A stretch of DNA of 64,000 nucleotides from Pyropia yezoensis (Eukaryota; Rhodophyta; Bangiophyceae; Bangiales; Bangiaceae). Of this stretch, positions 3,204 to 64,000 are shown piece after piece (position 1 is the stretch's first letter; each line of letters starts with the position of its first letter). The notes below the pieces were generated by a model, which saw only the letters and a program-made list of their open reading frames with translations, ran no database searches and was not told where the DNA came from. The stretch covers positions 5,224,083 to 5,288,082 of the forward strand of contig CM020619.1 of NCBI GenBank assembly GCA_009829735.1, in the 5' to 3' direction. The translations under genes were made by a program, and so were the position numbers.

Positions 3204-3314
3204 CCAGGCCAAGGAGGGGTGGGCCACGCCACCACGACCCCCCCCCCCCATCCAATACCTAGCCCCCCGCTCTTGACGACTCGGGACGCTCCCCAACGCC
3301 GTGGACGTCTGCCC

Positions 3315-31775: not shown

Positions 31776-32367
31776 GACAGGAAGGGAATTCCATGCCAGC
31801 GGGCCTGACCCCACAGAGCACAACGGCCGCCCCCCGCCCCCCCTTTTGCCCCGTCTTCCGGCTGCCCCCGGCGGGCGGCGGTGCACGGCGGCGTTGTGGG
31901 AGCGCAGCCGCCGCCCCCCCCCGCGGCCACGGTGGCAGTGCCGCCGCTGCCGGCCGGCGGGGGCGGCGGTCGCCTTTTTGGGCCCCGCCCTCGGGCGGTG
32001 GTGGCTCCTTGGTACTCTCCTGCCTGGCCTTGCCAATGGCCTTGTGCCGCCATGACCGGCTGGGATAGAACCCCCCGCCCCCCGCTGTCCCTGCGGCAGC
32101 AGAACCCGCCTGCCGCGCCGCCCAGCCCCACCCCCCCCCCCCCCCCTGGTGTCTGGCCGCCACCCACTGTCTGATCCCCCCTCCCCCCCCCCGGCGCGTG
32201 GGGGGGAGACGCTGCCCCCCGCCGAGAGCCAAAACGGCAGCGCCCGTTCCTCCTCATGATCCACGTGCGCGCGGGGGGGTTGGCGCCCAGCGACGCGGGG
32301 CACACGGCAGACGCGGTGGGGAGGGGGGGGCGGGGGGGGGAGAGTTGGAGCGAGGCAACGCGCGCCC

Positions 32368-32513
32368 AGCGCAGCACTGCTTGTCGCCTGTCAAAAATTT
32401 CTTGCTTTTTTGGGAAATTCTCGAGCAAAAACCTGCATAAAACCCGCATCGACCCCCCCTCAAGGCATCATAGACACCGCTTTTCCCCCCGTTTCTTGCT
32501 TTCTGCCTATAAC
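32368..32513 (+). repeat. 146-bp inverted repeat, left copy
   Basis: Matches the reverse complement of 39285-39430 over the full 146 bp with about seven substitutions and no gap (about 95 percent). It begins agcgcagcactgctt and ends tctgcctataac. The sequence is AT-richer than its flanks and not coding. Confidence 0.9.
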
Positions 32514-38934: not shown

Positions 38935-41900
38935 AGAATCTCCCCGAGGATGACCGACACGACGGCCGCTGTCGGTGTTCTGTCAACCAATGACAGCGGT
39001 GGCGCTGCTGTTTGCTGGATGGAGCGTTCCATTGGCCAGAATTCACGTTGTAGATATCGGGCAAGGCGGAGAGATTTTTCCTTGCCAACCCTCGAAAGCT
39101 GTCGTCGCGCAGGTTTTTGCTTAACCAGTGCGAGGGATTTCGCGGTTTTTAAACGCGTTCATATAAACATTGCTCCCAAGCGTAGCGATGGTCGGTCGCT
39201 TCTTTACGCTTCACGAGAGTGCTCTCCTGCCCCGCGCGCTTCCGTTCATACCAAGGGAGGTAGCGACCACCAATCGCCCGAGCTGTTATAGGCAGAGAGC
39301 AAGAAACGGGGGGAAAAGCGATGTCTATGATGCCTTGAGGGGGGGTCGATGCGAGTTTTATGCAGGTTTTTGCTCGAGAATGTCCCCAAAAAGCAAGAAA
39401 TGTTTGACAGGCGATAAGCAGTGCTGCGCTGCAGTGGTCCACCCCTCGCGGCCGAGGCGCGAGTCACCGGCCACGACGGAGCGCCCATCCGGCGTCGCTG
39501 CCGTCGCTTAGCCGCCAGCCATATAACATGGTTGTCCCAGCTGCAAGGCGTCTTGCCTGTTGCCTCGCAGAGTGCCGCCATCGCTGGCCAGGCGGCACCT
39601 CGCGGCTCCCCGACTGGAGACGCTGGTGGGGATAGCTCTGCGGTGGTGGAGCACAGCTGCACGCAGCCGCGGTCGCCGCCATCAGTGAAGGTGAAGGCCG
39701 CGCCCATCCCAAGCGCCGGCCGTGCGGGGGGTGCACCCGCCGCGCGGCCGTCGCTTGGCACACACCTGCCCTGGCCGCGCCTATCCCACGTCCGCGACTG
39801 GGAGGCCCCTCTGGTGGCACCACCGCCAAGGATGAATTTACTGTGAACGCCGTGCTGGCGGCATGGCCGTGGGTAATGTCAATGGGGGAAGAGTGGTGAT
39901 ACGGGGGGGCTCACAGCGGGGGGCGCGACCAAATTGGGCGGTTTCTCTTCGGTCGCGGCCGCCTCTCCCACCGCCCGCCTATTCCAGAGGGCGTTTCGCC
40001 GCTGACGCCGCTGGCGCCACCACTATTGACTGTCGGCACCATCTCCACCGTCGCCGCCGTGGCCGCGGCCTCCCTTCCCACCACCGCAAGCGGCGACACG
40101 GCAGTGGCGGCGGCGCGGTCCCGGCGAGGTCCGCCTTCCGATCGGCTCTGTACTCGCAGTGCGTTGCGCCTGCGCTGTGTATTGGAGGCAGACGCAGTCT
40201 CACTTTTGTACTGGGCTTCCCAGAGCGGACTGGTGCTACTTTTCAAAGAGATCCAGGGCATCACGTAAGCGCTGACATACGAAACATCAAAAATTCACAT
40301 TGTCAGCTTTCGCCAGGCCAACTCGTTCTCCGCTGGGGACCACACTCTAGGTGGCAGGATGCGGTACTTGGGACCTGTTAGGGAATTTGGTGCTGACGCG
40401 CCATCAGTGCCGTGTCTCTGGCGAGCCTCTCGCAGACTGGGACCTTCGTGGCCGTGGCCAACGCCCTCAGCCACCCGTCCGTTTGAGGGCGCCTCCACGC
40501 TCGCACGTTGACTGCTCCGGCCAGGCGCTCTGTGGCACCCATCAATTTGGGAATCTGGAGATAACCATCTCCAGCATCGCACCTCACAGGTGTGGTTCCA
40601 CTCTGGAGGATGCTCGTCACGGGTCGGCGTTTCTCTGTGTCTCCCAGATGGGTCTCGTGTCTGCCGCTTCAACCACTGGGGAGTGATGAGAGACCGCCCT
40701 GCCAACCGTGACTCAACGCCAAGCTTAATCAATCAAGAAGAATTACAGGAAGACCTCAGAAGCTTCGCCTTCTCTGCCAATGACCGCTGAGCACGGTGGA
40801 CAGTACTGGAACACGACGATCTGGTTGGCTGGTGGTGGCGTGTGGAAAATTCTGGTCCCGTTTGGGAGGCGTGCCGCCTGCAGACCAGAATCGCCGCGAC
40901 TCGTGAGCGCGTGAGTGGACGTGGGCTGGGCCCGACTGGGCGGTTTCTTTGTCTCTTTTCCCCTCCGAGACGGGCCGCGAGCACCTCCATGAGCCCAGCA
41001 ACGAGGCCACGGTCGCCCCCGCGCGGGGCCGCCCCCTTTTTGGCCCGACCGCTCCCAGCCAGCAAGCGTCGGACAACACACAGCGTGGCTAGCCACGATC
41101 ACTGGTGTTGTTGTGGTTGGCTGGCGGCTTGACGGCGTGCGGCAGCACGCCCGCGCGGGGTCCGTTGAGGGCAGGGAGCGTTGCCGCGGCCCCGCGCACG
41201 CAGTGTGCGGGTCGAGGCTGTTTCGGGCCGGCGGTTAGGCGCCGCCTGGCCCTTCTGGCCGCCACCGGCCCCACCAGCTCCCGCCCCCCCTCTGCACGCC
41301 TGCTGTCGCCTCGCTTTCGCGACCCCGCCTGGCAGCGGGTTGGAGAGCCCCTGGCACAGCGTGCCGCTCGCGCCGACACTGCCACCAGCTCGGCGCGGGG
41401 GTGTGTGGCGGGAGGCCCGCCGGCCACAGCGGGGCCGTGGTGGTGGCGGCGCATGCCCGAGTGCCCCCCCAGCCCCGACCTGCCGATTGTCGGGCGTCAT
41501 TGGATTGCGGTCCCTGGTGGGTGGGAGCAGCGCGCGATTCGCGTGTTGCGCCCCATCTCCCCTCACGACCAGCGCAACTCCGCTGTGACGCGGCAGCGCT
41601 GTGAGGTGGGCTGAAGCGCACGCACACCCAGGCAGCGGGGTGGAAGGCTTTGTCTTGCTGTCTCGGTGGGGCGTATTATTTTTTTTTGTCGTCCCTGTCT
41701 CGCCGCTTGTGGCGTGAACGCGTCGGCCGACGTTGGCGCTTCCATCCGTTGATTTGTTGTTTCTCTGTAGTGTCGAGGTGGCGGGTACTGCCCTCCCGAG
41801 CCGCCCCCCCGGTTGTCGGGCTGAGCTTGGGAGCGGAGTGGACGAAGATCCGTGGTGCTGTCTAGCCCGCGGCCGGGACGTGGCCCTACTTTTGAGCCGC

Positions 41901-49880: not shown

Positions 49881-50426
49881 CCCGCCGCCGCCGACGCCGC
49901 CACCACCGCCTCTGCCGCCGCCGCCACGGCCGCGCGTACCGCTGCCGCCTGGGCGGGCGCCAACCACCGCGGCGGCGGCGGTGGCGCGCCGGCCGGGGAG
50001 GCGGGCGGAGCCTGCTGCCCACGGGCACCCCCACCGCGCCGCGCACGGCGGGCCGGCCGGCAGGGCAAACGCCACCGCCATCACCGCCGGCGCAACTGCT
50101 GACGCCGCCGCCGGGGGAGGGGCGCCGCTCTGGGGTGGGAGGGCGCTGCCGCCGCCGCCGCCACCGCCGCCCGCCCCCCCCGGTTCCCAGCCACGCATGC
50201 CCGGCGTCAACGCGGCACTGTCCGCCGCCGCCGCGCCCACTCCCAGCAGCCGCGACCGCGACCGCGACCACGGCAAAAGCCGGGGTTGAAGGGTCACGCC
50301 ACGCGCCGGCGGGGGTGCGGCCGAGGCCTCGGCCGCCCGCGGTAGGGGGAGGGCGGTGGGGGCTCGAGCGCCGCGCAGAGCAGAGTCTGGTGAGGGCGGG
50401 AGTAAGAGGGGGGGGCGGAGTGACAA
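48427..50426 (-). CDS. Hypothetical Ala/Arg/Gly-rich protein
   Basis: Not recognised. The minus-strand frame has three stretches that look like folded protein rather than low complexity: ARRAIELLGHYTQLGGARVR with AALVGAIPASRSEAQVWKGA; VSVLGLLIRRGGGWLLSAG with VAAALGVDAATVARMGPATA; and AWRTRSRVEVLLGAAARGRL with VARRWAALLAARRVAAG. It is interrupted by poly-Gly. The C-rich block 48470-48507 again seems to switch frame: after it the frame ending STVATTAEAEG at 48427 is a more natural end than the original, which would run into the EHD gene. The start is unclear; 50426 is the first ATG in the frame. It converges with the EHD gene. Confidence 0.35.
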
Positions 50427-51337
50427 TACGACTTACTCAACGATGGACGACGCCGCGGGGAGGGGAAAGGGGAGCGGACGCGTCGTGTCGGGCGCTGCCG
50501 CGGCGGCGCGCCGGTAGGCAGTGGGGCGGGGGACTGGGACGGAACGCTAAGGGGGGAGCTGCGAGCGGCTGCGAAGCGCCGAGCGCTCGAGCCCCATCCC
50601 GCCGCTCAGCTCAGCGCAACCGTGCCAAAGTACAGTCGCCCCGCACGCATGTAGTTACCCCAAGACTTGTTTACTGGATTTGTAGTGGGTCTTCTGGTAA
50701 GGAATGTTTGCCCCTCGTTGATGGATGTGCCGCAGTGGCATGCGTGTGTTCCTCCTGTTTTTCTTTTTCCGAGTGCCATTGACAGTGACGAGATTTCCAT
50801 CGGTACCTCGATCGCGTGCACCGCACCCCGCGCGCGGGGTCGCGCCACGCGCCGCGGCGGGCACGCCACGCGACGGCAGTCGAGAGGCGTGGTATTGGGA
50901 CTCCTGCCGCGGTTGCGCGGTTGTCCCCTTTTGACAGAGCGCCAGCCGTGGGCGTCCCACCCGCGGCAGAAATCGGAAACGCGAGCCCCTCCTCCCCAGC
51001 CAAACGCGCTCCTTCCCCCGCCGTCAGGGTTAGCGCCGTTCACGGTCGGCGGCAGCCACACAGCTTGGCAATTTAACCCCGCACACTGGCGGCGTGTGCA
51101 TGGAAATGTGGGGAGGGGGCGGGGGGGGAGGGGGGGAGGGTCGCCCAGTCCTTACCCACCCACGCCGGCGCCATCGAGCGCCCCTCTCAATGGACGGAGG
51201 CAGCAACCTGCTGGGCTCCCCGTCCACTGGGTGGGGTGTTTCCCGTCCACCGGGTGGGGTGTGTAGTTGCGCACGCGCTACTGCGTCTCCCCCCTCCCCT
51301 CCCCGTGTCTTCCTCGCCTCGTGCCCCCACCTGACCG
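50427..51337. other. Intergenic region
   Basis: Divergent promoter region between the hypothetical gene (-) and the glycosyltransferase (+). It has moderate GC with a T-rich segment near 50745-50775. No gene is seen. Confidence 0.4.
51217..51262. repeat. 23-bp tandem duplication
   Basis: tccccgtccactgggtgggg and ttcccgtccaccgggtgggg are the starts of two adjacent 23-bp units differing at two positions. It lies about 80-120 bp upstream of the glycosyltransferase start and could be a promoter element. Confidence 0.75.
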
Positions 51338-53476
51338 GTGGTACCCGGCATGGCGACGGCCCCGCCGTCATTGGCGTGGCGCCCGTCCCCGCTGGCAGAC
51401 CCGCCAGGCCGCGCCTCGCCGACGCCTCGCCGCCGATGGCTGCGTGCCCCCACGAGCAACCGCGTCGCTCGCACCGCCGCCGCTGCCGCGGTAGCTCTGG
51501 CGGCAGCCCTTGTTGGGGTGGCCGTCGTCGTCGTAGTCTTTAGGGGACTGGCGGGGGCGGCGGCCGCCCACGGCGGCGGCGATGGTGGCCGCGGGAGCTG
51601 GGCACGGTGGGGCGGGCGGGCGGCGGCCTCGGCCGGGGCCAGCCGCCTCGGCCCGCCCCCCCCCGCCCACGGGGTGGCCGCCCGGCTGGCAGAGCGGTCG
51701 GCACTGCTGGCCACCTACGCCCTCCCGTCCCCCTACCTCCTCGCCGCGTGCGCGGTCGCCCGTGACGCCGATGACGTGCTGCGCGAGTGGGTTTTGCGCA
51801 ACTTCCTAAGTGGCGTCGACCACATCTTCCTCTACGACGACACCCCGCGGGACGGCAACGACGCCCCGCCCAACGACGGCGGCGACGGTGGCAGCGGCGT
51901 TGCCGCCCTGCTGGGTCCCCTGGCGCCGCTGGTGACGGTGCTCCCGACCCCCCCACGGCAGCCATCCGCGTCCGCGGCGGTCACCGCCCACCCCGACCTC
52001 CAACGCCGCGCCTACTGGGACTGCGCCACCCGCCACGGCGCCTCTGCCGCCTACCTCACCCACCTCGACGCGGACGAGTTTTTCGAGCCCCGTTCCGCCG
52101 CGGCTGCCGCCGCTACCACCGGCGCGGCCACTCCCGGGGAGTATGCGGCGGCCCCCCCCGGGCAGGTGCCCTTCCTCCACGCCTCCCTGTGGGCGCTCGC
52201 CCGGCGTGCCGCGGCGGCACGGCGCCCCCCGCCGCCCGCCCTGTGGGGCCGCTGGGTGACCGTCCTGTCCAACGGGCGGACCGTGCCACCACCGGCGGGG
52301 ACGCCCCTCTCCGCCGCCTATCCGGCGGCGTGCACGGCGGCGGCAGCCGACCGGCGGGTGCGCCTGGCGCGGCTGGTCGACTGGAAGCCGGTCTACGCGC
52401 CCGCGACGCTAAACTACACCGCCATGTCCGCCGCGTTCTTTGTGCACGGCACCGACTCGGCAGGGGGGGAGTACCAGCTTGTCCACATTCCCCCGTGGGG
52501 GCCCCCACCGAGGCCCCCGCCGCCGCCGTCGCCGCCGCCACCGCCCCGCCCACGGCCGCCTGCCCACGGCCTCCCGCCATCCCCTGACGCCGTCGCGGCC
52601 GCGACGGCAGCTGCGGAAAGAGATGCGGCAGCGTACGCGGCGGCGGCAGCGGCAGCGTGGCGTGACCACGGGGGCGTGGCGGGCACGCCCACCACCGACT
52701 GGGAGGTGCGGCACTACTGGTCCCGCTCGCTCGTCGAGTACGCCCTAAAGGCGGCGCGGGGGCGGCCCAACGGGCACCCCCGCCGGTCGCTCGCCGACCT
52801 GTACGCCCGCGAGGCGGCGTGTGCGCCCGCCCGCACGGGCAGCGCCACCTCCCTGCCCGCCCTGCGCGCGCCGCTGGTGCGAGCGCTGCTCGACAGCTTG
52901 CCCCCGCCGCCGCCGCCGCGGCGTGCCACCGCTGCTGCCGTGGCTGCTGCCGCTGCCGCTGCGGCGGCCGCCCCCGTTGACGCCGGCCCCACCGCAGCCG
53001 CCGCTGCTGCCGCAGGCGCGGGGGGGGGCGTGGACGGGACAGCAGCCACCCCGCTCCGACATCGTGCGGCCATTGCCGCCGCCGCGGCGGCCGCGCGGTC
53101 AGTAGTGTTTGGCACCCGCTGGTGCGGGGGCGCCACCCGCTGCGCGGCGGTGCCGTCCCGGGGCGACCCCGGCGGTGGCCGCGGCAGTAGCAGGTTGCAC
53201 GACGGCGGCGCTGACGGCGGCGCCGGTGGCGGGGCGGCGTGGAAGATGGCGCACCTGCTGGGCGAGGCCGCCGCGGGGGTGGCGCTCAACGCCACCGCCC
53301 TGTGTTCCACTTGGGGGCTGTGCGATGGCCGGGACGATAACGTCAAAGCGACGGGGAGCGGCGGGGGGGGGGCGATCTTTCCCTATGCGTGGATGCGCTA
53401 CGTGGACGACCCGCGGCTGGGGCCCGAGGATGTGGAGTGGCTACCGCCCGGAGCGGGGGGGGGGGTTGGGGCGTGA
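51338..53476 (+). CDS. Type II membrane glycosyltransferase, family 92 (DUF23)-like
   Basis: 712 residues; the ATG five codons in (MATAPPSLAW, 51350) is an equally good start. A short basic cytoplasmic tail is followed by one membrane segment at about residues 46-68 (AAAAAVALAAALVGVAVVVV), giving Golgi-type topology. The catalytic region begins AACAVARDADDVLREWVLRN, then FLSGVDHIFLYDDT, the usual family opening in which a distant chain end is reached via a GT-A fold. The metal-binding DxD is D244-D246 in LTHLDADEFFEP. Further fitting segments are RLVDWKPVYAP and YQLVHIPP, followed by VRHYWSRSLVEYALKAARG. The C-terminal 200 residues are Ala/Pro-rich but end in ordered IFPYAWMRYVDDPRLGPEDV. Donor and acceptor sugars are not predictable. 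Confidence 0.82.
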   Translation: MVPGMATAPPSLAWRPSPLADPPGRASPTPRRRWLRAPTSNRVARTAAAAAVALAAALVGVAVVVVVFRGLAGAAAAHGGGDGGRGSWARWGGRAAASAGASRLGPPPPAHGVAARLAERSALLATYALPSPYLLAACAVARDADDVLREWVLRNFLSGVDHIFLYDDTPRDGNDAPPNDGGDGGSGVAALLGPLAPLVTVLPTPPRQPSASAAVTAHPDLQRRAYWDCATRHGASAAYLTHLDADEFFEPRSAAAAAATTGAATPGEYAAAPPGQVPFLHASLWALARRAAAARRPPPPALWGRWVTVLSNGRTVPPPAGTPLSAAYPAACTAAAADRRVRLARLVDWKPVYAPATLNYTAMSAAFFVHGTDSAGGEYQLVHIPPWGPPPRPPPPPSPPPPPRPRPPAHGLPPSPDAVAAATAAAERDAAAYAAAAAAAWRDHGGVAGTPTTDWEVRHYWSRSLVEYALKAARGRPNGHPRRSLADLYAREAACAPARTGSATSLPALRAPLVRALLDSLPPPPPPRRATAAAVAAAAAAAAAAPVDAGPTAAAAAAAGAGGGVDGTAATPLRHRAAIAAAAAAARSVVFGTRWCGGATRCAAVPSRGDPGGGRGSSRLHDGGADGGAGGGAAWKMAHLLGEAAAGVALNATALCSTWGLCDGRDDNVKATGSGGGGAIFPYAWMRYVDDPRLGPEDVEWLPPGAGGGVGA

Positions 53477-53693
53477 GCGCAGTCCCGGGACCAGCGACAG
53501 TCCGGGAGGAGAGAGCCGGAGGCGGGTAAGGAGACGGCCGTCTTCACCGCGGGGGGAAGCGCCCGTCGGGGATGCGCAAGGTCAGGGGAGGTTCTTCCAT
53601 TGGGGCCAGTGAAGCACCCGCGGTGATTCCGTTCGCGAATGTGAGAAGTAGGGGTGCGTGACACCGACGCGTAACAGGTCCCGTCTCTTCAAG

Positions 53694-53746
53694 GCCGCGT
53701 AATCGGCCCTGTAGCGTCACAAGTGAAGCGCCGCGTTATCGGCACT
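53694..53746. repeat. Imperfect 17-bp direct repeats
   Basis: gccgcgtaatcggccct (53694-53710) and gccgcgttatcggcact (53730-53746), 15 of 17 matching, are 36 bp apart. Confidence 0.6.
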
Positions 53747-53964
53747 ATCAAGAATGAACGTTTACAAGAAAAGACAAAGACACAGACGCAAAACGCCGGT
53801 CGGCCGCCTGCGGCGGCGACTAGCGTCCCTCAAATACCCCCCCCCCTCTCTCTTTTCCGAGAGCCAAGTGATGGAGAACTATCGGTTAAACCCCTCCGGG
53901 AAACATCCGACTCATCCTGGGAAAGGTCCCCGGGAAAAGCCGGCGTCTAACCTACTAGTGAACG

Positions 53965-53995
53965 GCCGACAATTACCCATAATTGGCTCGTCGGC
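53965..53995 (-). ncRNA. Hairpin 3' of Fanzor, candidate guide-RNA scaffold element
   Basis: gccgac pairs with gtcggc, and inside it aatta pairs with taatt around a cca loop, with a 5-base bulge (ggctc) on one side. It lies 64-94 bases past the Fanzor stop. The structure is visible in sequence; that it belongs to a guide RNA is inference from position alone. Confidence 0.3.
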
Positions 53996-54058
53996 GAAAA
54001 AGGGGGAGGCTGACGCACCCCGTGGTAGGTGAGGGTCACGGGCAAGATGTGCGCTGTC

Positions 54059-55153
54059 TTAGCGTCTTGCAGTGTCCACCAGACCACGGGGCGCGTCTGT
54101 CGCCCCCGTCTCCGCCCGACGTACCCCGTCCATGGCACTGCCGGCCGCCGCCACCTGTTCCCCACCAGGAGCACCGCGTCGCGTCGTACAGGACGCCGCC
54201 GTCGCGTCGCCGTCGACAACCCCCCTACCGCCACCGCCACCGCCACCGCCACCGCCACCGCCACCGCTACCACCACCGTCGACGACAGTGTCCACTGCAG
54301 CGAGTACGGGCCATACATCGACCCGCGTAGTCGCACGGGTGCGGCGTACAGGCGGGACGGGAACACCACTTGGAGGACGCTTGGTCGTCCAGGCCCACCT
54401 CATACCAAACGGGCGCTTGAAAGGCCACACGTTGGTACCCGTGAGACGTCGAGCGGCCACCCACGCAATGTTGCGGGCCGCAACGTCGTCCCGATTGCGA
54501 ATCACGGGCGGGTGTGGCGCTGGGTGACCGGGGCCTTGTGGGGCCGCGAGAGAGCACGTGTAGCAGCCCTTGGCCGCCCACTCGCTCAGCCGCCTCGGGT
54601 CGGCATAGACGGCGCGGTCCTCGACGGCACAGGCGGCCAGCGCGGCCGCGCGCCGCGCCACAGCAGCAGCACGGGCAGTGGCTCGGACGGCCTCCCGGTA
54701 GGCGTCGGGGTCTGGCCCTCGGCGCGTCACGTGGGTAGCAGAGGGGAGGGCCCGCTTTGGCCGCCCCCGACGCGACCCAGCCGCCATCCGCACACGCCGT
54801 GTCGACGGCAGAGGGCCGGCCGGCGGCCCGTACAGCTCTCTTGGAGTCTTGGGGGGGGAGTTGCCCGTCGAGTAGATGAGCACCATCTTGTCGTGACACT
54901 CGGAGCACGCCTGGCTGGTGTTGAACTCGTCCTGGTCGACAAACCAGCACAGCCGTCGGAGGTGGCGGCGGAGCCAGGCGTCCCCCCCGCGCACGTGCGC
55001 GGTGCCCATGGCCACGACGACCGCACCGCCGCCACGGACCTGGCGAAGGAGGCCGCCGGTCAGGTCCCGCGCCACCGAGGCAGCAAAGCGGCCGCGTTGG
55101 ATGGCCTTGCGCACACGCGCCGTCCGCAGGTGTCGCGTGGCTTGCGCGCCAAA
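54059..55153 (-). CDS. Fanzor (TnpB-like nuclease) C-terminal part: RuvC-II, zinc ribbon, RuvC-III
   Basis: Continues in the same frame as the gene to its right after a single TGA (55156-55154). First ATG at 55114; residues are numbered here from the 58264 start. GGGAVVVAMGTAH (1078-1090) matches the RuvC-II strand, where the usual acidic residue is replaced by Met/Gly. Next comes FVDQDEFNTSQACSECHDKM, the Fanzor zinc-ribbon signature, with E1113 and Cys 1120/1123, then the second Cys pair GCYTC (1234/1237). RuvC-III is RNRDDVAARNIAW with Asp1259. The missing RuvC-II acid plus a Glu before the ribbon fits the rearranged RuvC site described for Fanzors. The last ~80 residues are low complexity, including a poly-Gly run. 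Alone this fragment lacks RuvC-I and could not cut DNA. Confidence 0.8.
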   Translation of the reverse strand, partial: FGAQATRHLRTARVRKAIQRGRFAASVARDLTGGLLRQVRGGGAVVVAMGTAHVRGGDAWLRRHLRRLCWFVDQDEFNTSQACSECHDKMVLIYSTGNSPPKTPRELYGPPAGPLPSTRRVRMAAGSRRGRPKRALPSATHVTRRGPDPDAYREAVRATARAAAVARRAAALAACAVEDRAVYADPRRLSEWAAKGCYTCSLAAPQGPGHPAPHPPVIRNRDDVAARNIAWVAARRLTGTNVWPFKRPFGMRWAWTTKRPPSGVPVPPVRRTRATTRVDVWPVLAAVDTVVDGGGSGGGGGGGGGGGGGRGVVDGDATAASCTTRRGAPGGEQVAAAGSAMDGVRRAETGATDAPRGLVDTARR

Positions 55154-58100
55154 TCACTGGCCGTACGCGGCCGTGTCGCGACGGGCGGCCCACTCGAGCG
55201 TTTCCTGCAGGTGCTTGCCGTCGTCGCCGGTACGCATCGTGCCGTGTGCTGCTGCCAAGTCGACGGGTGGTAGGTGGCCAGCGACGCCGCCTCCGTCACC
55301 CGCCGCCGCCGCCACCAGTCCCGCCACCGCCACCGCCACCGGTCCCGCCTCAGTACCGCTGCGTGCCCGCCACTGCTTCCACGCACGGGCCAAAAAGTTA
55401 CCGCCGCTGGCCTCGCGAAAGTGGGCGGCACTCAGGTTGTAGCGAAGGCCGGGGACGGGTGCCAGTCGACGACACCGCTTGCGCCGGGGCAGCGCGTCCA
55501 CCCGGTCCAGCAGCGGCGCGTCTGGGGTGGTGCCGCTGGCACTGTTGCCCGCCGCGGCAGTGGGGTCCACCAGCCACCGTGCCACCTTTTCCGCCTCGTG
55601 ACGGGGCACAGTCCACCGGGACAGGCGCGTGCGTCGCAGCACACGCCGCACCGAGGTGGCGAGCTGGGTGCGGCGGGCCCGTCGGATGGACGCCTGCGGC
55701 CCACGCCGCACGCGCCCGTGGCCACCACCGGGGCTCGCCGTCTGGTAGGTCCTTGCCTCGGGGGGCGTCGTCCCACCCGCCGCCGCCGGAGCCACCGCCG
55801 CCGCATCATCGTCGCTCCCCTCGGGTGACGACCGCCGCGCTTGTCGCTTGGAACGGCCCCCCCCTGTCCCCGCCCCTGCAGCCGGGGCGCCCGCCGCCGC
55901 CCGCTTCCTAGACCCCCCCGGTGGGTGGCCCTCGGGCGTGGTTGCGGCTGCCGCCACCCCGTCTTGGACGCCCGCCCCACGCAGGAGCGCCACGGCCGCC
56001 CGGTTGGGCGCGTCCAAGCCCATGTGGCGGGACCACGCGGCGCGCATCGCGGCTACAGCGGGGCGGGCTGGGAGGTCTGCCGTCGCCACGCGCTCACCCG
56101 GTGCTGCCGACAGCACGGCAGACGGCCCCGGGTCTCCGCCGACCATCTGGAGCCACCGGACGCGCGCCAACGGCAGGCCAGCCCGATCGAGCTGCGTCAG
56201 TACCCCCGCCCGGGACGCAAAGCCTTTGCCGCCGCGGTCCCGCGCACGTTCACCGCCGTCCAGCTTCTTGGCCCAGGCCACCGCCCGCGCCTCGGCCTCT
56301 GCGGCCGTGTCGGGTCGAGACAGAAAAAACGTCACCGCCACGCCGTCGGTAGACAGCTGGGAGGCGGCCCGGTTGGCGCGGCCACCGACACCAGCCATGG
56401 CGGCCAGCACCGCTGCACCGCCCGTTCGCAGCTCTGGCCATGCCCGAAGACTGGGGTGGCCACGCACCCTCACGCCAGTGGCGACCGAAACTGCCAGCAA
56501 CAGGGCGAGCATCTTGTCCGGCACCAGCGTGCCGTGCCCGTGGAGCACCGCTCGGGCGCCAGGGATGAGGGCGTACGGGCTCCCCACACCCACATTCAGG
56601 ACGTGGAGGAGAAACGGCACGTACGCCCACCAGCGGCGCTTCTTCACAGGCGTTGCTGGAAAGAGGCCCGCCACAGAGGGTGGCATGGCCGCCCGCATGA
56701 CGGCTACCCGTTGCGCCAGCGCCTGGACCAGGTGCTGGGGGACGCCGTCGAGGCCCCGCCGGCCCGGCGTTGCCTTGTCCGCGGTACCCGCGCGGAAGCG
56801 CGCGGCCGCCCACCGCGTCAGCCGCCGCTCCGTGTCCCAGGCAGAGCCGCCCGCGGGAGCAGCCGCGGCAGCGGGGGGGGTGGCCAGCGCGTCCTTGGCC
56901 GCCTTGGCGCCCAGCTTGCGACACGCCGCGTCCACACACCGCCCGGCGTGGGTGGCCACGATGGTGGCGACGGGCTCCCATCGTGCCGTGTTGTTGCTCG
57001 CCGGAAGATACCGGTCGTACGCAGCTGCCGTGACGGCCATCACCTGCGTCAGGGCGTAGGAGAGCGCCTCTGTCAGCAGCGGGTGGCTCGTTGTCACCAC
57101 AGAGCGGGCGCGCGCCATCCGCGTGTTGGCCCGCCCCTTGCCACAGCCCGCACACACGGTGCCCGCCTGCAGGGGACTGCCAGACACACCCTCGCAGCCG
57201 CAGGCGTAGGCCAACCACAGCCAGACGGGCGCCCAGTTTGCGGGCACGGCCCCCGTCCAGTCGGCGTCGTCGGCGGCTGCGTCCGCGACGGTCGACACCA
57301 GGCGCCGCAATGCCACGTCGAGGACGCGGAGCATGAGGAAGCGGAGCTTGGTAGCCGCCCCAGAGAGGTCCTCCAGCTCTGCTTGCAGCGCCGTCTCCAC
57401 CGCCGCGCGCGTGCCGGCGTCGTCCTTGTCTTCCCCAAACACCGCCCTTGCCAGGACGCCCACCGGGACGGTACACGCCCGCGTCTGCCGTCCAGTGCTC
57501 TGAAGCGGGTCCTTGCAGTCGGGGTCGACGCCGCGGTCGTAGGCCGCTGGCACGCCCCCACAGTGCCGCTGCACCGGGCAGGCGGCGTCCCCGCTGCTGT
57601 GGCCCCCTCCCAGGCAGTCGCGACACTTGGACGCGGCCGCCGCCGCCGCCGCCGGGACGGCGGCGGCAGCGGCAGCGGCAGCGGCGGCGGCAGCGGCCGC
57701 CGGCTCTGCACCAGCCGGGGCCTTGCAAGAGGTGACCTTGTGCCCGGGCTCGCCACATCTGCTACACTTTTGCGTCCGCCCCTTGCGGGCGGGCGGTGCG
57801 TCAGTGGCAGCCTCGCGCCGGGGCAAGCCCGCGGCGGCCACGCCAATCAGCCCAGCGGCCGTCTTGGCGCGTGCGGCGAGCTCCACCTCGGCCTCGCTTG
57901 CCGCCGCCCGACCACCACAGTACACGCTGACCGCCTGTGCCGCGCCTGTGATGGCCGCGACGAGGTCCTCGCCGGCGCCGTCGAGGGGGCCCGCCGCCTC
58001 CTCATCCTTGGCCGCCTGCTGCAACTGCGCGACGGCGGCAGACCAGTCGGCCGACGAGGCCGCGTCGCCCCCGTGGGGTGCAGACACGCCCTGCAGGCGG

Positions 58101-58264
58101 CTCAGGTTGGCGGCGAGCACCGCCCGCTTGAGCGTCACCACGTTGCGTGCGTCTTGAACGTACGCCTGCTCTTGGGCCGGGTCCCACTCCTCGTCTGAGG
58201 TGGTGTCGCCGTCCAGCCCGTCGACGCCAATGTCTTGGTCGCTGCCGTCGTCATCATCGTTCAT
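55154..58264 (-). CDS. Fanzor (TnpB-like nuclease) N-terminal part with zinc knuckles and RuvC-I, ended by in-frame TGA
   Basis: 1,036 codons before the TGA. An acidic start (MNDDDDGSDQDIGVDG) is followed by two zinc-knuckle-like motifs: CSRCGEPGHKVTSC (167-180, exact CX2CX4HX4C) and CRDCLGGGHSSGDAAC (214-229). The middle contains VKKRRWWAYVPFLLHVLNVG, then RuvC-I as WLQMVGGDPGPSAVLSA with catalytic Asp711. After it come a low-complexity linker and a basic stretch, PRRKRCRRLAPVP. Reading on past the TGA gives one ~1,400-codon Fanzor, long for the family because of poly-Ala and linkers. CCHC knuckles are not a standard TnpB part, so they may be an acquired nucleic-acid-binding module. TGA ends other genes here, so it is a true stop unless the base is an error (CGA or TGG would restore sense). 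Identification rests on motif order, not on a search. Confidence 0.8.
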   Translation of the reverse strand: MNDDDDGSDQDIGVDGLDGDTTSDEEWDPAQEQAYVQDARNVVTLKRAVLAANLSRLQGVSAPHGGDAASSADWSAAVAQLQQAAKDEEAAGPLDGAGEDLVAAITGAAQAVSVYCGGRAAASEAEVELAARAKTAAGLIGVAAAGLPRREAATDAPPARKGRTQKCSRCGEPGHKVTSCKAPAGAEPAAAAAAAAAAAAAAVPAAAAAAASKCRDCLGGGHSSGDAACPVQRHCGGVPAAYDRGVDPDCKDPLQSTGRQTRACTVPVGVLARAVFGEDKDDAGTRAAVETALQAELEDLSGAATKLRFLMLRVLDVALRRLVSTVADAAADDADWTGAVPANWAPVWLWLAYACGCEGVSGSPLQAGTVCAGCGKGRANTRMARARSVVTTSHPLLTEALSYALTQVMAVTAAAYDRYLPASNNTARWEPVATIVATHAGRCVDAACRKLGAKAAKDALATPPAAAAAPAGGSAWDTERRLTRWAAARFRAGTADKATPGRRGLDGVPQHLVQALAQRVAVMRAAMPPSVAGLFPATPVKKRRWWAYVPFLLHVLNVGVGSPYALIPGARAVLHGHGTLVPDKMLALLLAVSVATGVRVRGHPSLRAWPELRTGGAAVLAAMAGVGGRANRAASQLSTDGVAVTFFLSRPDTAAEAEARAVAWAKKLDGGERARDRGGKGFASRAGVLTQLDRAGLPLARVRWLQMVGGDPGPSAVLSAAPGERVATADLPARPAVAAMRAAWSRHMGLDAPNRAAVALLRGAGVQDGVAAAATTPEGHPPGGSRKRAAAGAPAAGAGTGGGRSKRQARRSSPEGSDDDAAAVAPAAAGGTTPPEARTYQTASPGGGHGRVRRGPQASIRRARRTQLATSVRRVLRRTRLSRWTVPRHEAEKVARWLVDPTAAAGNSASGTTPDAPLLDRVDALPRRKRCRRLAPVPGLRYNLSAAHFREASGGNFLARAWKQWRARSGTEAGPVAVAVAGLVAAAAGDGGGVAGHLPPVDLAAAHGTMRTGDDGKHLQETLEWAARRDTAAYGQ

Positions 58265-58434
58265 CGTGAATCCGGGGCGGGGGGGGGGGAGGGGGGGGGG
58301 AGGGGGGGGGGGGCGGAGGCGGATGAGCGGGTTGTGTGTGTGGGAACGACTGTGAGGAGGGTGGGTGGGAGGGATTGTCGACGGTGGCTGACGGGGTTGA
58401 CAAAGATGGGGAACCTCGGGGCACCACCTACCGC

Positions 58435-58447
58435 CCTATTTATTGTC
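58435..58447 (-). promoter_or_regulatory. TATA-like element upstream of Fanzor
   Basis: On the minus strand it reads gacaataaatagg, about 170 bases before the ATG, in a GC-rich context. Plausible core promoter. Confidence 0.35.
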
Positions 58448-59835
58448 TGGCAAGGCACCATCCGGGCCGGGGTCCTCACTCGATGCCGTACCCGTGCTGT
58501 AGACGCTGGCGATGGGCTGCACGGGCCGTCAGGAGACCGGCGGTCCAGGTCCTCCCAACCCCCTCCCGCCCCCCCCCTCCCCCCCCCGCCGCCCTCCCCC
58601 CGCCACCCCCCAACCGACGCTACCTCTCGGGCAGGGGGCAGAGCGGAGGATGCTCGCACCGCCACGTGCCCCTGTGGGCTGTCTCGTGGCCTTAGCTCGC
58701 CGCCCCGGAAATGAAAGATCCTTCTCATCTCCGCGGCACCCGTGGCCGACGGTGGCTGTCGTGAGAGTGTCCTGTGGCGCGGCGGCGGCGGCGGTGGCGG
58801 TGGTGGGGCTGGCGGTGGTGGTGTGGCGGCGGCGGTGGTGGTGATGGGGTTGGCGGCCCAATTGCAGACCGCGCACAGACGCTGTGCTCATGGCAGCCGC
58901 CAGTAGCACGACGGTGGGTGCGGGACGGAGTGCACCGCATGCACTGCGGCATTTGAGCCGACTGACACGCCAGCATCCGTGCGGCTCGCCCAACCATGGC
59001 GAGCGAGCGCCCCCCCCCCCCCCCCCCTCCCCCCCCCCGCTCCCGACGGCACGTATTGGGAGAGTGACCGCCACCGTGCTGCGGGACAATAACAAAACTG
59101 TAATTGAACCCACATTCGGCACTGCCTGCTCGCCACGGTGCATGTGGGGCGGCGTGTTGGGACGCGGGCACCCAGCCTTTTGGTGCTTCCGGCAGGCCCC
59201 GTCCGTTTGCAATGCACTACGAGCACCGTTTGGGAAAAATGTCATCCTGGACGTCTTTGTGGGGGGGGGGAGGGGGGGCAGTCGTGTACCTCAAACCCAC
59301 CGCCACAGACGGCATCGCCATGCTGCGAGCTCACCGCGCGGTGCCTCCAAATGGCCTGTCACCAGCACACGACACCGCGCGGGCCGCGTGGACCTACGGC
59401 TCTCGTCAGACCCGGGGGGCGCCGAGGGAAGCGACTGACCGGACCTGCCTGTGGCTGAACGTGCGGCCGACGGATGAGAGCACCCATCCCCGGACACCCC
59501 CGTCACCGTCCAATTCAACATCATCTCGCGCCGCCGCCCAAATCCCCTCCCCTCCCGTTCGATCCGCGTCAGTGTCAGCCGGTGGTCGGGGATCTCAGTT
59601 ATCGAAATTCAATTCGCCCCCCCTCCCCCGCCCGTCGCCCTCTCTTTATGGTTTCCCCCCCCACCATGACGCAATCGGAAGACACTAATTCACGCGCCCA
59701 CACAATAGAACAACTATGTGACCGCCCAGCTCGTTCCGTTATGCACCAAACGCGAGACGTCAGCTCTAGGGAACAATGTCTACAAAGATCCGAAGAGCGT
59801 TACGTACAGTCGGTACCCAATATTATCTCAATATT

Positions 59836-59868
59836 ATCCGTACGGCGAAAAACGAGATTCGTACGGAT
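59836..59868. repeat. 9-bp perfect hairpin
   Basis: atccgtacg and cgtacggat separated by 15 bases, in AT-richer DNA about 80 bp outside TIR element 2. Unknown role. Confidence 0.5.
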
Positions 59869-59944
59869 CGATTTGACAACAGGCCACCCATCAAATCCAG
59901 GCCCTGGGCTGGACAATAGACAATACCTCGTGCTAGCACCCCCA

Positions 59945-59983
59945 GCGTAGCGGGTCTTAAACCGTGTATCTTATTTTCCGTGC
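59945..59983 (+). repeat. Left TIR of element 2
   Basis: Starts gcgtagcgggtcttaaacc, ends ttttccgtgc. Confidence 0.8.
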
Positions 59984-60098
59984 CGGCACGTGCGCGCACT
60001 TTCGAATGCCTGTTTGCAGGCCCCGCAGGCCCGGGCGTCGCCGCTTCTGCAAAGCCGTAAAATTTCACATTGTCAGCGGTGCACGCCTTGGCATCATG

Positions 60099-60152
60099 TA
60101 TGGTGCTTTTCCCAAAAATGGCCACCTCGGTGTGGGAACGCAACCTTCGATG
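60099..60152 (+). repeat. Internal inverted arm of element 2, left
   Basis: tatggtgcttttcccaaaaa and on to caaccttcgatg; pairs with 60796-60846 with a handful of substitutions and small gaps. Confidence 0.75.
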
Positions 60153-60795
60153 CAAACAGCAACAGTATCTGGCCCACTTGATCGCGGGACTGGTCCACAT
60201 CACCTGCAGCCAATAGTAGGGCACGGAGCGCGCAGATCGCACCGGCCACAGGCTGAGATGCATGTACCTCCAGAGAATGTGACGGTTGGGCACGTCATTT
60301 AGGCCATCTGCCCACGCATGCTGAGCAATCAAATCAGCACACGTTGCAAGACAAGCCTCGTGATTACATTGACCAATCGCATGCTCGACACGTTTTCGCA
60401 GGTTGCCGGAAGCGTCCGCAACCAGCACTCGCAGGCCGCAACCCGGACTGGAAGACCCGGCCTGGTTTCACGGAACGACTTGGGTCCGCCTCTGAGATTC
60501 AAACGGCCAATAACCATGAAGGCCTGAGGGGGTCGTGAGGCCACATAGTTAACAACCCGAGGCCCGCATTAGCACACCAGACTGGAACCACCTCGCCCAT
60601 TTCACCGGTCCACAGCAACCCACGGCAACCTGTGACACGGTTTGCGTAGTGGTCCCCGGAAGCCCGCAAACTGGCCATCGCCGAGCACGTGACCCCCACA
60701 ACCAGCACTACTTACCAACACAATCGAGCTCCCCGAAAGTCTGGCGGACGTGTGACACGCCTGGAAGACCATCCAGGGGCGGTGTCGAGGTCCCG

Positions 60796-60846
60796 TCAAA
60801 GGTTGCATTCCACACCGATGTGGCCATTTTTTGGAAAAGCACCATA
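60796..60846 (-). repeat. Internal inverted arm of element 2, right
   Basis: The reverse complement reads tatggtgcttttccaaaaaa and on to caacctttga, matching the left arm. Confidence 0.75.
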
Positions 60847-61311
60847 AAACGCTGCAGGGCATGCACAATTTGAAGTGCGGCCCTGGTCGCGCAAAGCACC
60901 GTGTGCCTGCAGCAACATTCACAAACACGTGAATGCCGTGCCCGTCGCATGCATTGCATTGCGCGGTCACGTGAGGAAGCCTGCACAGCAGTGCAGCAGT
61001 GCGGCACCAGCGACTGACACCATTCGGGCACGTCATGAAACGTGGATATTGCTGCATAGACACGTACTCTCGGGTCACGGTCGCCTTGTTGTGCGCCCCG
61101 CGGCACGCCCCTCTGGCGAGACGCACACAGGCCGTGGGAATGTAGGCCCTGCCGTCCTGATGACGGTCGTCGAGGAGAGAAATAAAAAAAAAAAAAGAGT
61201 AGGAAGCACGGTCACAACGCGGCCGTGTGCGCTCTTGCACGCGGAAATCGGGCTTTACGGGGGCCCCTGGGCGCCCCCCTGCAATCCACTGCCCGCCTGT
61301 TTGGGCCCGAT

Positions 61312-61350
61312 GCACGGAAAATAAGATACACGGTTTTAGATCCGCTGCGC
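61312..61350 (-). repeat. Right TIR of element 2
   Basis: The reverse complement starts gcgcagcggatctaaaacc. The taa within it is the stop codon reached by the adjacent transposase remnant. Confidence 0.8.
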
Positions 61351-62030
61351 AGCGGCTATCACACCCCCCACACGACAGGGCATCGACTCCACGAGAGACT
61401 TGAAAAACAAAGCAGGAATGGCGTCCCACCCGTCGCGCAGAGCCATCCAGCCGCGGTGCGCTGTGGCCCACACAAGGCGCTTGGCGACGTTCTTGGCAGG
61501 CAGGAAGGGTTTCTTGGCCGCTTCCCCCTGGAGTGAAAACCCAAGCTCCAGACGGCCCTGCGGACAGCGGAGACTGACACTGGTCCCTTCTCGGGCCCGC
61601 TGGTCGCTTGGGTGCGCGTGGTATTCACCATCTCCTTCAGGGATGCCACAGAGGAAAACCCGTCGGTGTCAAGCGCCCGCTTGACGTTAGAGAGCTCACG
61701 GTCCGTCAAAACCTTGGGGCGACCCCGCTTGTCCACCCTGGCGCGGGCGGACTCCGTGCGGATGGCCCATAGCTGCGTAGGCGATGGTGCTCTTGGAGCG
61801 CCCCGAATCCGTACCGATGGCCCGGAAGGACCTCTTCTGTTGGAGGAGGCCAGTGATGACCCCGCGCGCTCACCGTCGAACAGAGAGCGAGCGACGCGAT
61901 GAGCCCGCCATCGTGCCTGCCGACCACGGCGGAGTCCTGGGCGCTGAGCTGTGGGCTCACATACACGGACGGTGCTGTGGCACTTGGGCGCGACCTTGCC
62001 ATATGAGCCTTTGTCCAACTGGTCACGCAA
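61336..62030 (-). pseudogene. Tc1/mariner transposase, internally deleted
   Basis: The first part encodes the paired-type DNA-binding region: VDKRGRPKVLTDREL, a serine/valine helix, then VSVSAVRRAVWSLGFHS. After a frame change near the AGGGGG at about 61530 the text continues as KKPFLPAKNVAKRLVWATAH, the usual linker to the catalytic domain. It then jumps straight to DGWDAIPALFFKSLVESMPC-RVGGVI, which in intact Tc1 enzymes is the extreme C-terminus. About 150-170 residues with the DDE catalytic triad are missing. So it has one frameshift plus one large deletion and is inactive. The residual DNA-binding half might still bind TIRs if expressed. Confidence 0.75.
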
Positions 62031-62190
62031 CTCAAAACATCAACGACAGCAGTTGGGAACAACACTGGGGAACAACCGACCACCACATGAAAAGCGACAT
62101 CTTCAAAGCATAAAAAAGAGGGGGTGCCGTACAGCCCCCCCCCCCCCCCCCCCCCCCACTTTTCCCCCCAGAAACAAAATATACTCCCGA
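62031..62190. other. Spacer with C24 run
   Basis: Contains 24 C at 62135-62158 just downstream of the helicase stop. Nothing else is seen. Confidence 0.6.
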
Positions 62191-64000
62191 CTAGTACACC
62201 CTGTCGGGAGCCACAATGTTGATGTGCTCGCGGTCCCGTCGATCTGGACGGCTCCACCTACGGCGGACGTTGTCCCACCAGCTCTTCCACACACCCTCAG
62301 AGCTTGAAAGGTAGTCCATGTCACCAATCACGTGGAAATGGCTCTGTGCCCGCGACATCATGGCGTTCACGCGCCGCTCGTCGGACAAAAAGTCGGTGCT
62401 CCCGCCGGGTGGCGCCCCAGGCTCTGACCGCACGAGGGAGAGTATGACACAGTCCACAGAAGCGCCTTGGCAGCCATCCACGGTGGACACCCTGACGTCG
62501 GCACATGGTCTGCGGGGCAGCCGCCTGCTGTCTCTCATCGACTGCACCACCTCATTCAGCTTGTTCGGCTGCGCAGTGTACGGGGTGATGAGCATCACCT
62601 TGAGCTCGGTAGCCCCGCTGGACGTCGCCCACGCCCGCAGTAGATCCGTAAGAGCCATCTCGACCAACCGAAGCTCTGCAACGTTAATCAGGCTCTTGTT
62701 GTTGGGGGTGGTGGAACCCGTCTTGTGCGCCCGATCGTCGGCCGGCAGGCGGGAGGTGTCTGTCACTTGCAGCCCTCCAAAGCGAATAGGCTGTCCCGGA
62801 TGGTTTAGCCACGCGGGTGTTCCAAATCCCTCCTCATGGCGGGCCTTGGGCCCGCGCCCGTCCGACCATATGCCAATGTGCGGGTAAAAGACTTGTCGGA
62901 GGAGGGACCATAACAGCGGCCGCATGCGGTACTGCACGGAGAGGATGACGCAAGCGGACAGAAACCTGGCGAGCCGCTCAAAAACGCTGGATGCCATCGG
63001 CCGTGTCTCGCCTCTGTACTCCATGCCGGCGCTCGGCCTCAGCTGGGCATTGTCGCCAACAAGGACAATGCACTTGGTCCGCTCTGCCGGATGACCGTCC
63101 TCTTCTTCATCTGACGAGCCACCCGCACGCCCCGCCCGCTTGGCGCGAACAATGGCGGCGACGGACGCAGGGACGCTTGTTGCCGCACCCTCGTCAATGA
63201 TAATGGCGTCAAAGCCTTGACCCCCCACGAGCGCCCCCGTCGACGTTGACGTGGTTGTGACAATGACGGACGCGCCGCCCACGATGCGCTTGCGGAGCTC
63301 CCGTTCCGCACGCTGCTGGCGACGCAAGGCAGCCTCCAGGGCTTGCTCCGCATCGGCACATTCCTCGAGGAGGACTTGTGACCCACCCGCGCCCGGCTCT
63401 GCACCCTGGGCGCGGGACCGATCCACACGGCGGCCCACATCGGCCACCCGTGCCCTCGCCCGTTCCACCGCGGCTGTCACGGACGGGTAGGCGACAGGAA
63501 GGCGCTCGTCCACCACGGCGTCAATGTGCGTTGTCTTGGCACGGTGGCCATCCAGAGGGGGTTCACCCACACGGAGGAGCGTCACGGCATCGGGTTTCGC
63601 GACGCCGTGTCGACTTTCAGCCCCCGACGGACAGAACAACTCGTGAACTGCGTCCAACAGCTCGTCGCACGCCGTGTTGGTGCGCGACGTCAGCAGGACC
63701 CGCCCGTCTGGAAGGGTCCCAAGTACCATGTCCACCATGGAGACAATGGCGCGTGTCTTGCCCGTCCCGAGGGGGCCCGTCACCAGCTGCACGTCACACT
63801 CGTCCGACAACAGCCCCCGGCGCATGCAATCGACTGCGCGCCACTGGAACTCGTCCAGGTGGGCGTAGCGTCGAGGAGCACTCTGCAGGGGGGGAGGCCC
63901 CGGTGCCGGTACAGGTACCACCTGCTGTCCCCCGTGCGAAGGCGTTGCGTGGATGGCGAGCGCCCTCTGCATGACTGGCGGAAGAAGGTCCCAGTGGCCG
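62191..64000 (-). CDS. SF1 superfamily helicase, UPF1/AAA_12 type, 5'-truncated by the window
   Basis: The frame is open to the window edge, so the N-terminus lies outside; the first ATG inside is at 63972, but GHWDLLPPV precedes it in frame. Helicase motifs in order: I QLVTGPLGTGKTRAIVSM; Ia VLLTSRTNTACDELLDAV; II IIIDEGAATSVPA (DEGA instead of the usual DEAA/DEAQ); III CIVLVGDNAQLRPSAG; IV ILSVQYRMRPLLW; V VSTVDGCQGASVDCVILSLV; VI RRVNAMMSRAQSHFHVIGD. This is a complete ATP-dependent RNA/DNA helicase core of the UPF1/SMUBP2 group. The helical 1B insertion is between I and II. The C-terminus follows motif VI by only about 40 residues. Its cellular role is not predictable from the core alone. 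Confidence 0.9.
   Translation of the reverse strand, partial: GHWDLLPPVMQRALAIHATPSHGGQQVVPVPAPGPPPLQSAPRRYAHLDEFQWRAVDCMRRGLLSDECDVQLVTGPLGTGKTRAIVSMVDMVLGTLPDGRVLLTSRTNTACDELLDAVHELFCPSGAESRHGVAKPDAVTLLRVGEPPLDGHRAKTTHIDAVVDERLPVAYPSVTAAVERARARVADVGRRVDRSRAQGAEPGAGGSQVLLEECADAEQALEAALRRQQRAERELRKRIVGGASVIVTTTSTSTGALVGGQGFDAIIIDEGAATSVPASVAAIVRAKRAGRAGGSSDEEEDGHPAERTKCIVLVGDNAQLRPSAGMEYRGETRPMASSVFERLARFLSACVILSVQYRMRPLLWSLLRQVFYPHIGIWSDGRGPKARHEEGFGTPAWLNHPGQPIRFGGLQVTDTSRLPADDRAHKTGSTTPNNKSLINVAELRLVEMALTDLLRAWATSSGATELKVMLITPYTAQPNKLNEVVQSMRDSRRLPRRPCADVRVSTVDGCQGASVDCVILSLVRSEPGAPPGGSTDFLSDERRVNAMMSRAQSHFHVIGDMDYLSSSEGVWKSWWDNVRRRWSRPDRRDREHINIVAPDRVY

Follow-up and report, generated by a model that had tools for sequence, protein, structure and literature searches.

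A recently inactivated gene for a probable divergent Fanzor1-type nuclease at the right end of a large transposon with many copies in Pyropia yezoensis

A long minus-strand frame in the genome of the red seaweed Pyropia yezoensis has the appearance of a Fanzor RNA-guided nuclease gene, which raises the questions of whether it encodes such an enzyme and, if so, what carries it. The frame lies in a 64,000-nucleotide (nt) stretch, here called the window (C2:5224083-5288082 of a P. yezoensis assembly of 107.5 Mb), and coordinates are given on the scale of the window. Sequence comparisons indicate that the locus is probably a copy, only recently inactivated, of a gene for a divergent RNA-guided DNA endonuclease of the Fanzor1 type, located at the right-hand terminus of a large transposon with many copies, the intact ones of which would act in the manner proposed below. 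The gene and its motifs are arranged as follows.

54059..58264, minus strand: Fanzor1-type gene of 1401 codons and a stop, interrupted by a single in-frame TGA at 55154-55156
56309..56362, minus strand: TDG strand, residues 635-652, a block upstream of RuvC-I that is present too in solved Fanzor1s
56099..56152, minus strand: RuvC-I, with DPG at residues 711-713 and the catalytic D711
54875..55027, minus strand: RuvC-II strand without its canonical acid, the relocated E1113 and the first ribbon CxxC
54554..54565, minus strand: second Cys pair, CYTC, residues 1234-1237
54467..54502, minus strand: RuvC-III, NRDDVAARNI, with D1259

The frame begins with an ATG at 58264 and continues as a 1036-amino-acid (aa) open reading frame (ORF; 55154-58264) to the TGA at codon 1037, beyond which 364 codons in the same frame lead to the stop codon at 54059-54061. 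Because long frames are frequent by chance in DNA of 73% GC (a 785-aa antisense ORF overlaps this one), coding was judged by homology. A protein search recovered P. yezoensis I4F81_002529 (P0001), with 95% identity over 76% of the region, and an intact 1347-aa homologue (P0002), with 60% identity over 100% of the searched region (E 3.6e-264). The alignment to P0002 keeps the window frame from the first to the last residues, including two N-terminal zinc knuckles and the three catalytic residues, whereas P0001 stops early in the alignment. The preliminary description of this locus had read a single minus-strand frame through one TGA and placed Asp711 in RuvC-I and Asp1259 in RuvC-III, and both the frame and the two residues are borne out. 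A further search added 12 relatives (8 shorter P. yezoensis hypothetical proteins and 4 from Logan assemblies). P0002 keeps NRD at RuvC-III; P0129, a Logan-assembled relative, has NPE at the same place.

The published hallmarks of Fanzors, as given in the available portion of one report, are a RuvC-I DPG and a glutamate relocated to a position six residues ahead of the zinc ribbon, replacing the acid of RuvC-II (PMC10711439). The ribbon motif of the window protein, DEFNTSQACSEC (residues 1112-1123), has this configuration, with E1113-FNTSQA-C1120 placing the glutamate six residues ahead of the first CxxC in 21 of 21 genomic copies. The lack of an acid in RuvC-II, which had been noted at the outset, is thus what the family predicts and not an oddity, since the published signature moves the glutamate next to the ribbon.

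Assignment to the family was evaluated against 120 listed of the 853 relatives of one Fanzor from a viral contig, a set that represents the surroundings of that Fanzor and not a survey of all Fanzors. A Fanzor1 profile was built from 41 of the 120, obtained by similarity thinning of the 112 that exceed 560 aa, and its alignment by hhalign to the profile of the window family yields three blocks in the expected order. The ribbon block scores 43.4, about twice the best of 30 column shuffles (21.6), and when a richer family profile is used, the leading block spans RuvC-II to RuvC-III and scores 41.6, as opposed to 21.9 or less in 40 shuffles.

Several results weigh against this assignment. The TDG block scores 25.1, slightly over the shuffled range (a joined TDG-DPG block reaches 25.8 with the richer profile), the RuvC-III block scores 20.2, inside that range, and two senseless alternative alignments score 24.1 and 22.9, near the TDG-DPG block. 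Global profile alignment failed to join the family to the Fanzor1 profile, and the hhalign probability is just 28-36%. Searches of the PDB with the ORF, homologue and family profiles returned chance matches or none and reached no solved Fanzor, and the Pfam zinc-ribbon model PF07282 falls below its cut-off in the protein and has no match in the genome (controls match 6/14), so that this family, unlike standard Fanzors, escapes the model in its own genome. The second CxxC lies about 110 residues after the first and, although present in the P. yezoensis copies, is absent from P0002; of the two pairs originally described, the first is kept. Searches of NCBIfam and a phage collection gave no match for the Fanzor-type protein, and scans of viral and prokaryotic contigs detected no relative of the window family.

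With the TDG and RuvC-III scores near chance and the global alignment failing, the ribbon carries most of the weight. An unrelated zinc-ribbon protein bearing these motifs by chance would account for the low hhalign probability, for the ribbon being the sole block that clearly exceeds the shuffles and for the lack of a significant direct database link to solved Fanzors. Such a protein is very improbable, given that the motif blocks are correctly ordered and kept in the intact homologue and that the ribbon block by itself scores about double the best shuffle. The TnpB/Fanzor identity first proposed from motif order is supported by the DPG and E-x6-CxxC motifs, by the ribbon block and by the ordered, weaker blocks. 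By its motifs and by profile comparison, the window protein is classed here as probably a divergent Fanzor1-type protein, and its case illustrates that PF07282, the standard domain model, can miss divergent Fanzors.

Three solved Fanzor1s (SpuFz1, PpFz1 and GtFz1) share with the window protein the TDG, a RuvC-I DP[GN] (DPN in SpuFz1) and E-x6-CxxC, in that order. The RuvC-III RD is common to SpuFz1, PpFz1 and the window protein, with GtFz1 falling outside the alignment, and PpFz1, like the window protein, has an insertion in RuvC. By regular expression, a TDG precedes RuvC-I in 120 of the 120 listed relatives, in a comparison confined to these and the solved Fanzor1s. The Fanzor motif of 2013, as it appears in the accessible part of its description, specifies a spacing of D-X(125,275)-[TS][TS] (PMC3627910), and the window protein, at 404 residues, exceeds it; this range is not strict, in that the spacing from DPG to E runs from 109 to 516 in 119 of the 120 listed relatives. 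The window protein is unlike other Fanzor1s in its length (1401 residues, versus 375-846 in the listed relatives), its N-terminal knuckles, the roughly 400 residues between D and E, and a ribbon split by about 110 residues.

At least 44 Fanzor copies were scored across three chromosomes of P. yezoensis, and in 28 of the 44 the matched N-terminal part contains no stop; the TGA of the window copy sits just beyond that part. Full-length reading of 21 copies (the window copy and 20 others) shows 14 with one frame of 1391-1417 aa and a conserved GLV[DN][TS]ARR tail, 1 whose long frame ends differently, and 6, including the window copy, that stop early. D711, E1113 and D1259 are present in all 21. 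The stop at codon 1037 is absent from 20 of the 20 other copies, and residue 714 of the window copy, beside RuvC-I, is likewise private. Across the 14 intact copies (91 non-independent pairs), the ratio of nonsynonymous to synonymous polymorphism (pN/pS) is 0.50 overall and varies by region: 0.51 in residues 1-260, 0.39 in 261-750, 0.88 in a disordered insert (751-930), 0.56 in 931-1066, 0.40 from RuvC-II to III and 0.54 in the tail. Because its TGA is private and its sister copies are intact, with fewer amino-acid than silent changes, the window copy is, as judged from these alignments, one that was inactivated recently in a family that is young and looks functional.

Two other explanations of the interrupted frame were considered and discarded: selenocysteine or stop-codon reassignment is ruled out by the 20 of 20 sister copies without a stop at codon 1037, and a domesticated host gene is ruled out by the 44 dispersed copies. 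Carriage by a transposable element is supported by this dispersal together with a sharp right end common to the copies.

It is improbable that the protein is a guide-RNA binder acting mainly as a regulator, with a dead or weak nuclease, rather than as a cutter. The splitting of the ribbon, the loss of the second Cys pair from P0002 and the residue before D711 (Gly in 21 of 21 copies, Val in P0002) are the features that such a regulator would explain, but all three catalytic acids persist in every one of the 21 copies and in P0002, and the low pN/pS between RuvC-II and RuvC-III argues for a nuclease.

The feature that most sets this protein apart from other Fanzors is at its N terminus.

57725..57766, minus strand: zinc knuckle 1, residues 167-180, C-x2-C-x4-H-x4-C, an exact CCHC (zf-CCHC E 0.014, below cut-off)
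57578..57625, minus strand: zinc knuckle 2, residues 214-229, C-x2-C-x4-H-x6-C, with a longer last spacing

The two CCHC-like knuckles (C167-C170-H175-C180 and C214-C217-H222-C229), reported at residues 167-229 in the preliminary description, are real: both occur in P0001 and P0002, with an alanine-rich linker between them that barely aligns, and their ligands are retained in 20-21 of the 21 genomic copies. Pfam scores for the knuckles are under the cut-off, and pN/pS in the knuckle region (residues 160-235) is 0.37, a value given without a significance test. A complete knuckle was found in 0 of the 12 further relatives, in which the region is absent or skipped by gene models. Neither knuckle pattern occurs in any of the 120 listed Fanzor relatives, in agreement with the original view of the knuckles as an unusual addition, and a search of the open-access literature found no paper linking a Fanzor with a zinc knuckle. 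The knuckles probably add contacts to single-stranded nucleic acid, most likely to the guide RNA. As an accessory domain, zinc knuckles would be new among RNA-guided nucleases.

Downstream of the gene, the copies end together, and the DNA between the coding region and this boundary is highly structured.

53877, minus strand: transposon right end, ...GGTTTAACCGATAGTT, with different flanking DNA in each of 21 copies
53969..54141, minus strand: long hairpin over the stop codon, a candidate omega-RNA scaffold whose 5' arm encodes the conserved C-terminus
53878..53959, minus strand: second hairpin, one base short of the right terminus

The right end falls at the same base in 21 of 21 copies, 182 bp past the Fanzor stop; an 8-base deletion lies nearby in one copy, and the last base differs in another. 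According to the available text of a published study (PMC10432273), omega RNAs of other Fanzors lie over or beyond the 3' end of the gene, which is where the candidate lies here. Of 797 minus-strand tiles of 260 nt across the 64 kb, each compared with 20 shuffles, the one at the right end has the lowest fold z, -8.8. The 182 noncoding 3' bases show a diversity of 0.0147, compared with 0.0443 at four-fold sites (P = 3e-4), and the contrast persists when only G+C sites are considered (0.0097 versus 0.0406; P = 4e-4). Within the last 35 codons, four-fold diversity is also low (0.011), which is suggestive at most (P = 0.09).

Three observations count against an RNA function for this structure. With 160-nt tiles, which miss the long hairpin, the right end is no outlier; four-fold diversity varies along the Fanzor gene itself, from 0.011 to 0.062; and 0 of 96 hairpin pairs change on both sides, with column shuffles equaling the data, although covariation is undetectable because the copies are too similar. 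A search of positions 50000-64000 with Rfam at gathering thresholds gave no match at the right-end region. The hairpins could alternatively be cis-acting transposon ends recognized by a transposase or a helicase, and not omega RNA at all. This alternative, possible though less likely, draws on the absence of covariation, on the termination of the second hairpin one base before the terminus and on the terminal hairpins of Helitron2 elements, some of which carry Fanzor1, as noted in the accessible sections of PMC3627910. The long hairpin, however, straddles the Fanzor stop, as do omega RNAs of some other Fanzors in the portion of PMC10432273 available, and a dual role is possible. The right-end structure is therefore taken as a candidate, and likely, omega (guide) RNA.

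Right ends also occur apart from the gene: 11 of the 40 that were scored (from 103 candidates) have no scored Fanzor N-terminal part within 3.5 kb (e.g., G000:C2:3397744-3397927) and may be non-autonomous or deleted copies. On the other side of the right end, a glycosyltransferase-like gene (51338-53476, plus strand; Glyco_tranf_2_4 E 6e-5, below cut-off) converges on it and is probably a host gene.

Upstream of the Fanzor gene, the element extends beyond the window and includes a second large gene.

62191..63972, minus strand: UPF1/IGHMBP2-like superfamily 1 (SF1) helicase, its open frame running on past the window to 67833
53877..64000, minus strand: in-window part of the transposon, with homology to other copies continuing to 71546 (C2:5295628)

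The helicase contains AAA_11 and AAA_12 domains (E 1e-21 and 2e-32), as do UPF1/IGHMBP2-like helicases in general. Its closest solved relatives are UPF1; the IGHMBP2 family model matches at E 2e-38 yet below its cut-off, and the MkoA models of PADLOC match at E 4e-60. It differs from UPF1 and IGHMBP2 in being multi-copy and transposon-borne and in having a long upstream open frame, comprising 1287 additional codons, that no Pfam family or PDB chain matches. Of the 79 helicase matches in the genome, which include fragments of a single copy, 69 were used for pairing after 8 distant matches and 2 pieces were dropped. A helicase lies upstream and on the same strand in 38 of the 44 Fanzor copies (median distance, 3.2 kb; 2.5-4.6 kb in 35 copies and 12-13 kb in 3) and within 20 kb downstream in none. 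This arrangement indicates that the Fanzor and the helicase belong to one large transposon.

The two genes could instead be parts of unrelated transposons, side by side or nested. In favor of this, 6 of the 44 Fanzor copies have no scored helicase within 20 kb, some helicase copies have no scored Fanzor, and more than one version exists of the DNA immediately upstream of the Fanzor. The probability of such an arrangement is small, in view of the constant strand and order of the paired copies and of the base-by-base homology that passes unbroken through Fanzor and helicase in the single pair of copies compared (the window versus L015/L032). The eight distant SF1 matches, on C1, C2 and C3 of G000, have 41-43% identity and long open frames, which suggests a second family, possibly belonging to another transposon.

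The longest left extent common to two copies reaches about 120 bp before a frame starting MGKRSRP, and the longest copy measures 23.8 kb, its middle part having been compared by search only. The window copy and two others depart from the shared sequence at three different points, and the stretch directly upstream of the Fanzor is present in at least two versions. The DNA farther to the left of the helicase contains repeats together with an open frame showing weak PIN-like similarity. In the few left-part frames and the helicase region that were scanned, no transposase was recognized, the PIN-like match being the most that was seen, and this counts against the explanation proposed here. Terminal inverted repeats were not detected: the best matches between flanks consist of simple GC repeats and do not exceed controls. 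Within the upstream DNA fetched, no inverted counterpart of the right terminus occurs, and inspection by eye revealed no duplication at the two ends of the window copy.

Other open frames lie within the element. A large alanine-rich frame at the left end (L040:2-5098, plus strand) has a PIN-like match near its C-terminus (E 0.025), and a 407-aa frame in the opposite orientation (L036:469-1689, minus strand) has no Pfam match.

Under the proposed model, intact copies would make both the nuclease and an omega RNA that continues beyond the right end, such that the adjoining host DNA would serve as the guide. The 21 different flanks would then specify 21 different guides. The complex would cut a matching target, for example, the allele that lacks the element, and repair after cutting would favor retention or copying of the element, an effect already suggested for TnpB and Fanzor. 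The probable task of the helicase is transposition, unwinding or the handling of R-loops. Tentatively, the combination of a zinc-knuckle Fanzor, a right-end omega RNA and a UPF1-family helicase may constitute a mobility module and define a new class of giant red-seaweed transposons. If so, RNA-guided cutting and a helicase would drive the copying of a 24-kb element that has no conventional transposase.

Fanzor1 elements have been known from red algae since 2013, when CMe-1A of Cyanidioschyzon merolae was described (PMC3627910). By the portion of that description available, CMe-1A resembles the P. yezoensis element in being multi-copy, in lacking terminal inverted repeats and in having a 5' part that is shared with another element, but it is only about 3 kb long and older (80% to consensus), and the same portion mentions neither a helicase nor knuckles (PMC3627910). 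Searches of the open-access literature found no paper pairing a Fanzor with Pyropia or with Upf1, and at the level of titles and the openings of abstracts, the papers retrieved on UPF1-like helicases and transposons describe no such element. The suggestion that a knuckle-bearing Fanzor from this kind of genome might be undescribed consequently needs narrowing: a red-algal Fanzor had already been reported, and it is the knuckles and the helicase-bearing giant element that appear undescribed, although larger Fanzor surveys could include Bangiales proteins. The P. yezoensis family could help to show what Fanzors do for their transposons, since the alga is cultivated and sequenced, and intact copies, exact right ends, varied flanks and an associated helicase make the guide RNA, the target and the effect on mobility testable.

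The window copy has itself been invaded. At positions 60100-60845 lies an insertion some 745 bp long that is bounded by 52-bp inverted repeats (90%) and an apparent TA duplication; this insertion is present in L015 and absent from seven sister copies (L012, L014, L018, L023, L027, L029 and L030); we take it to resemble a non-autonomous mariner-type element inside the Fanzor transposon. Elsewhere in the window are an 850-bp duplication (88%; 3306-4153 and 10336-11183), a repeat array (5606-6518) and a 147-bp inverted pair (95%; 32367-32513 with 39285-39431).

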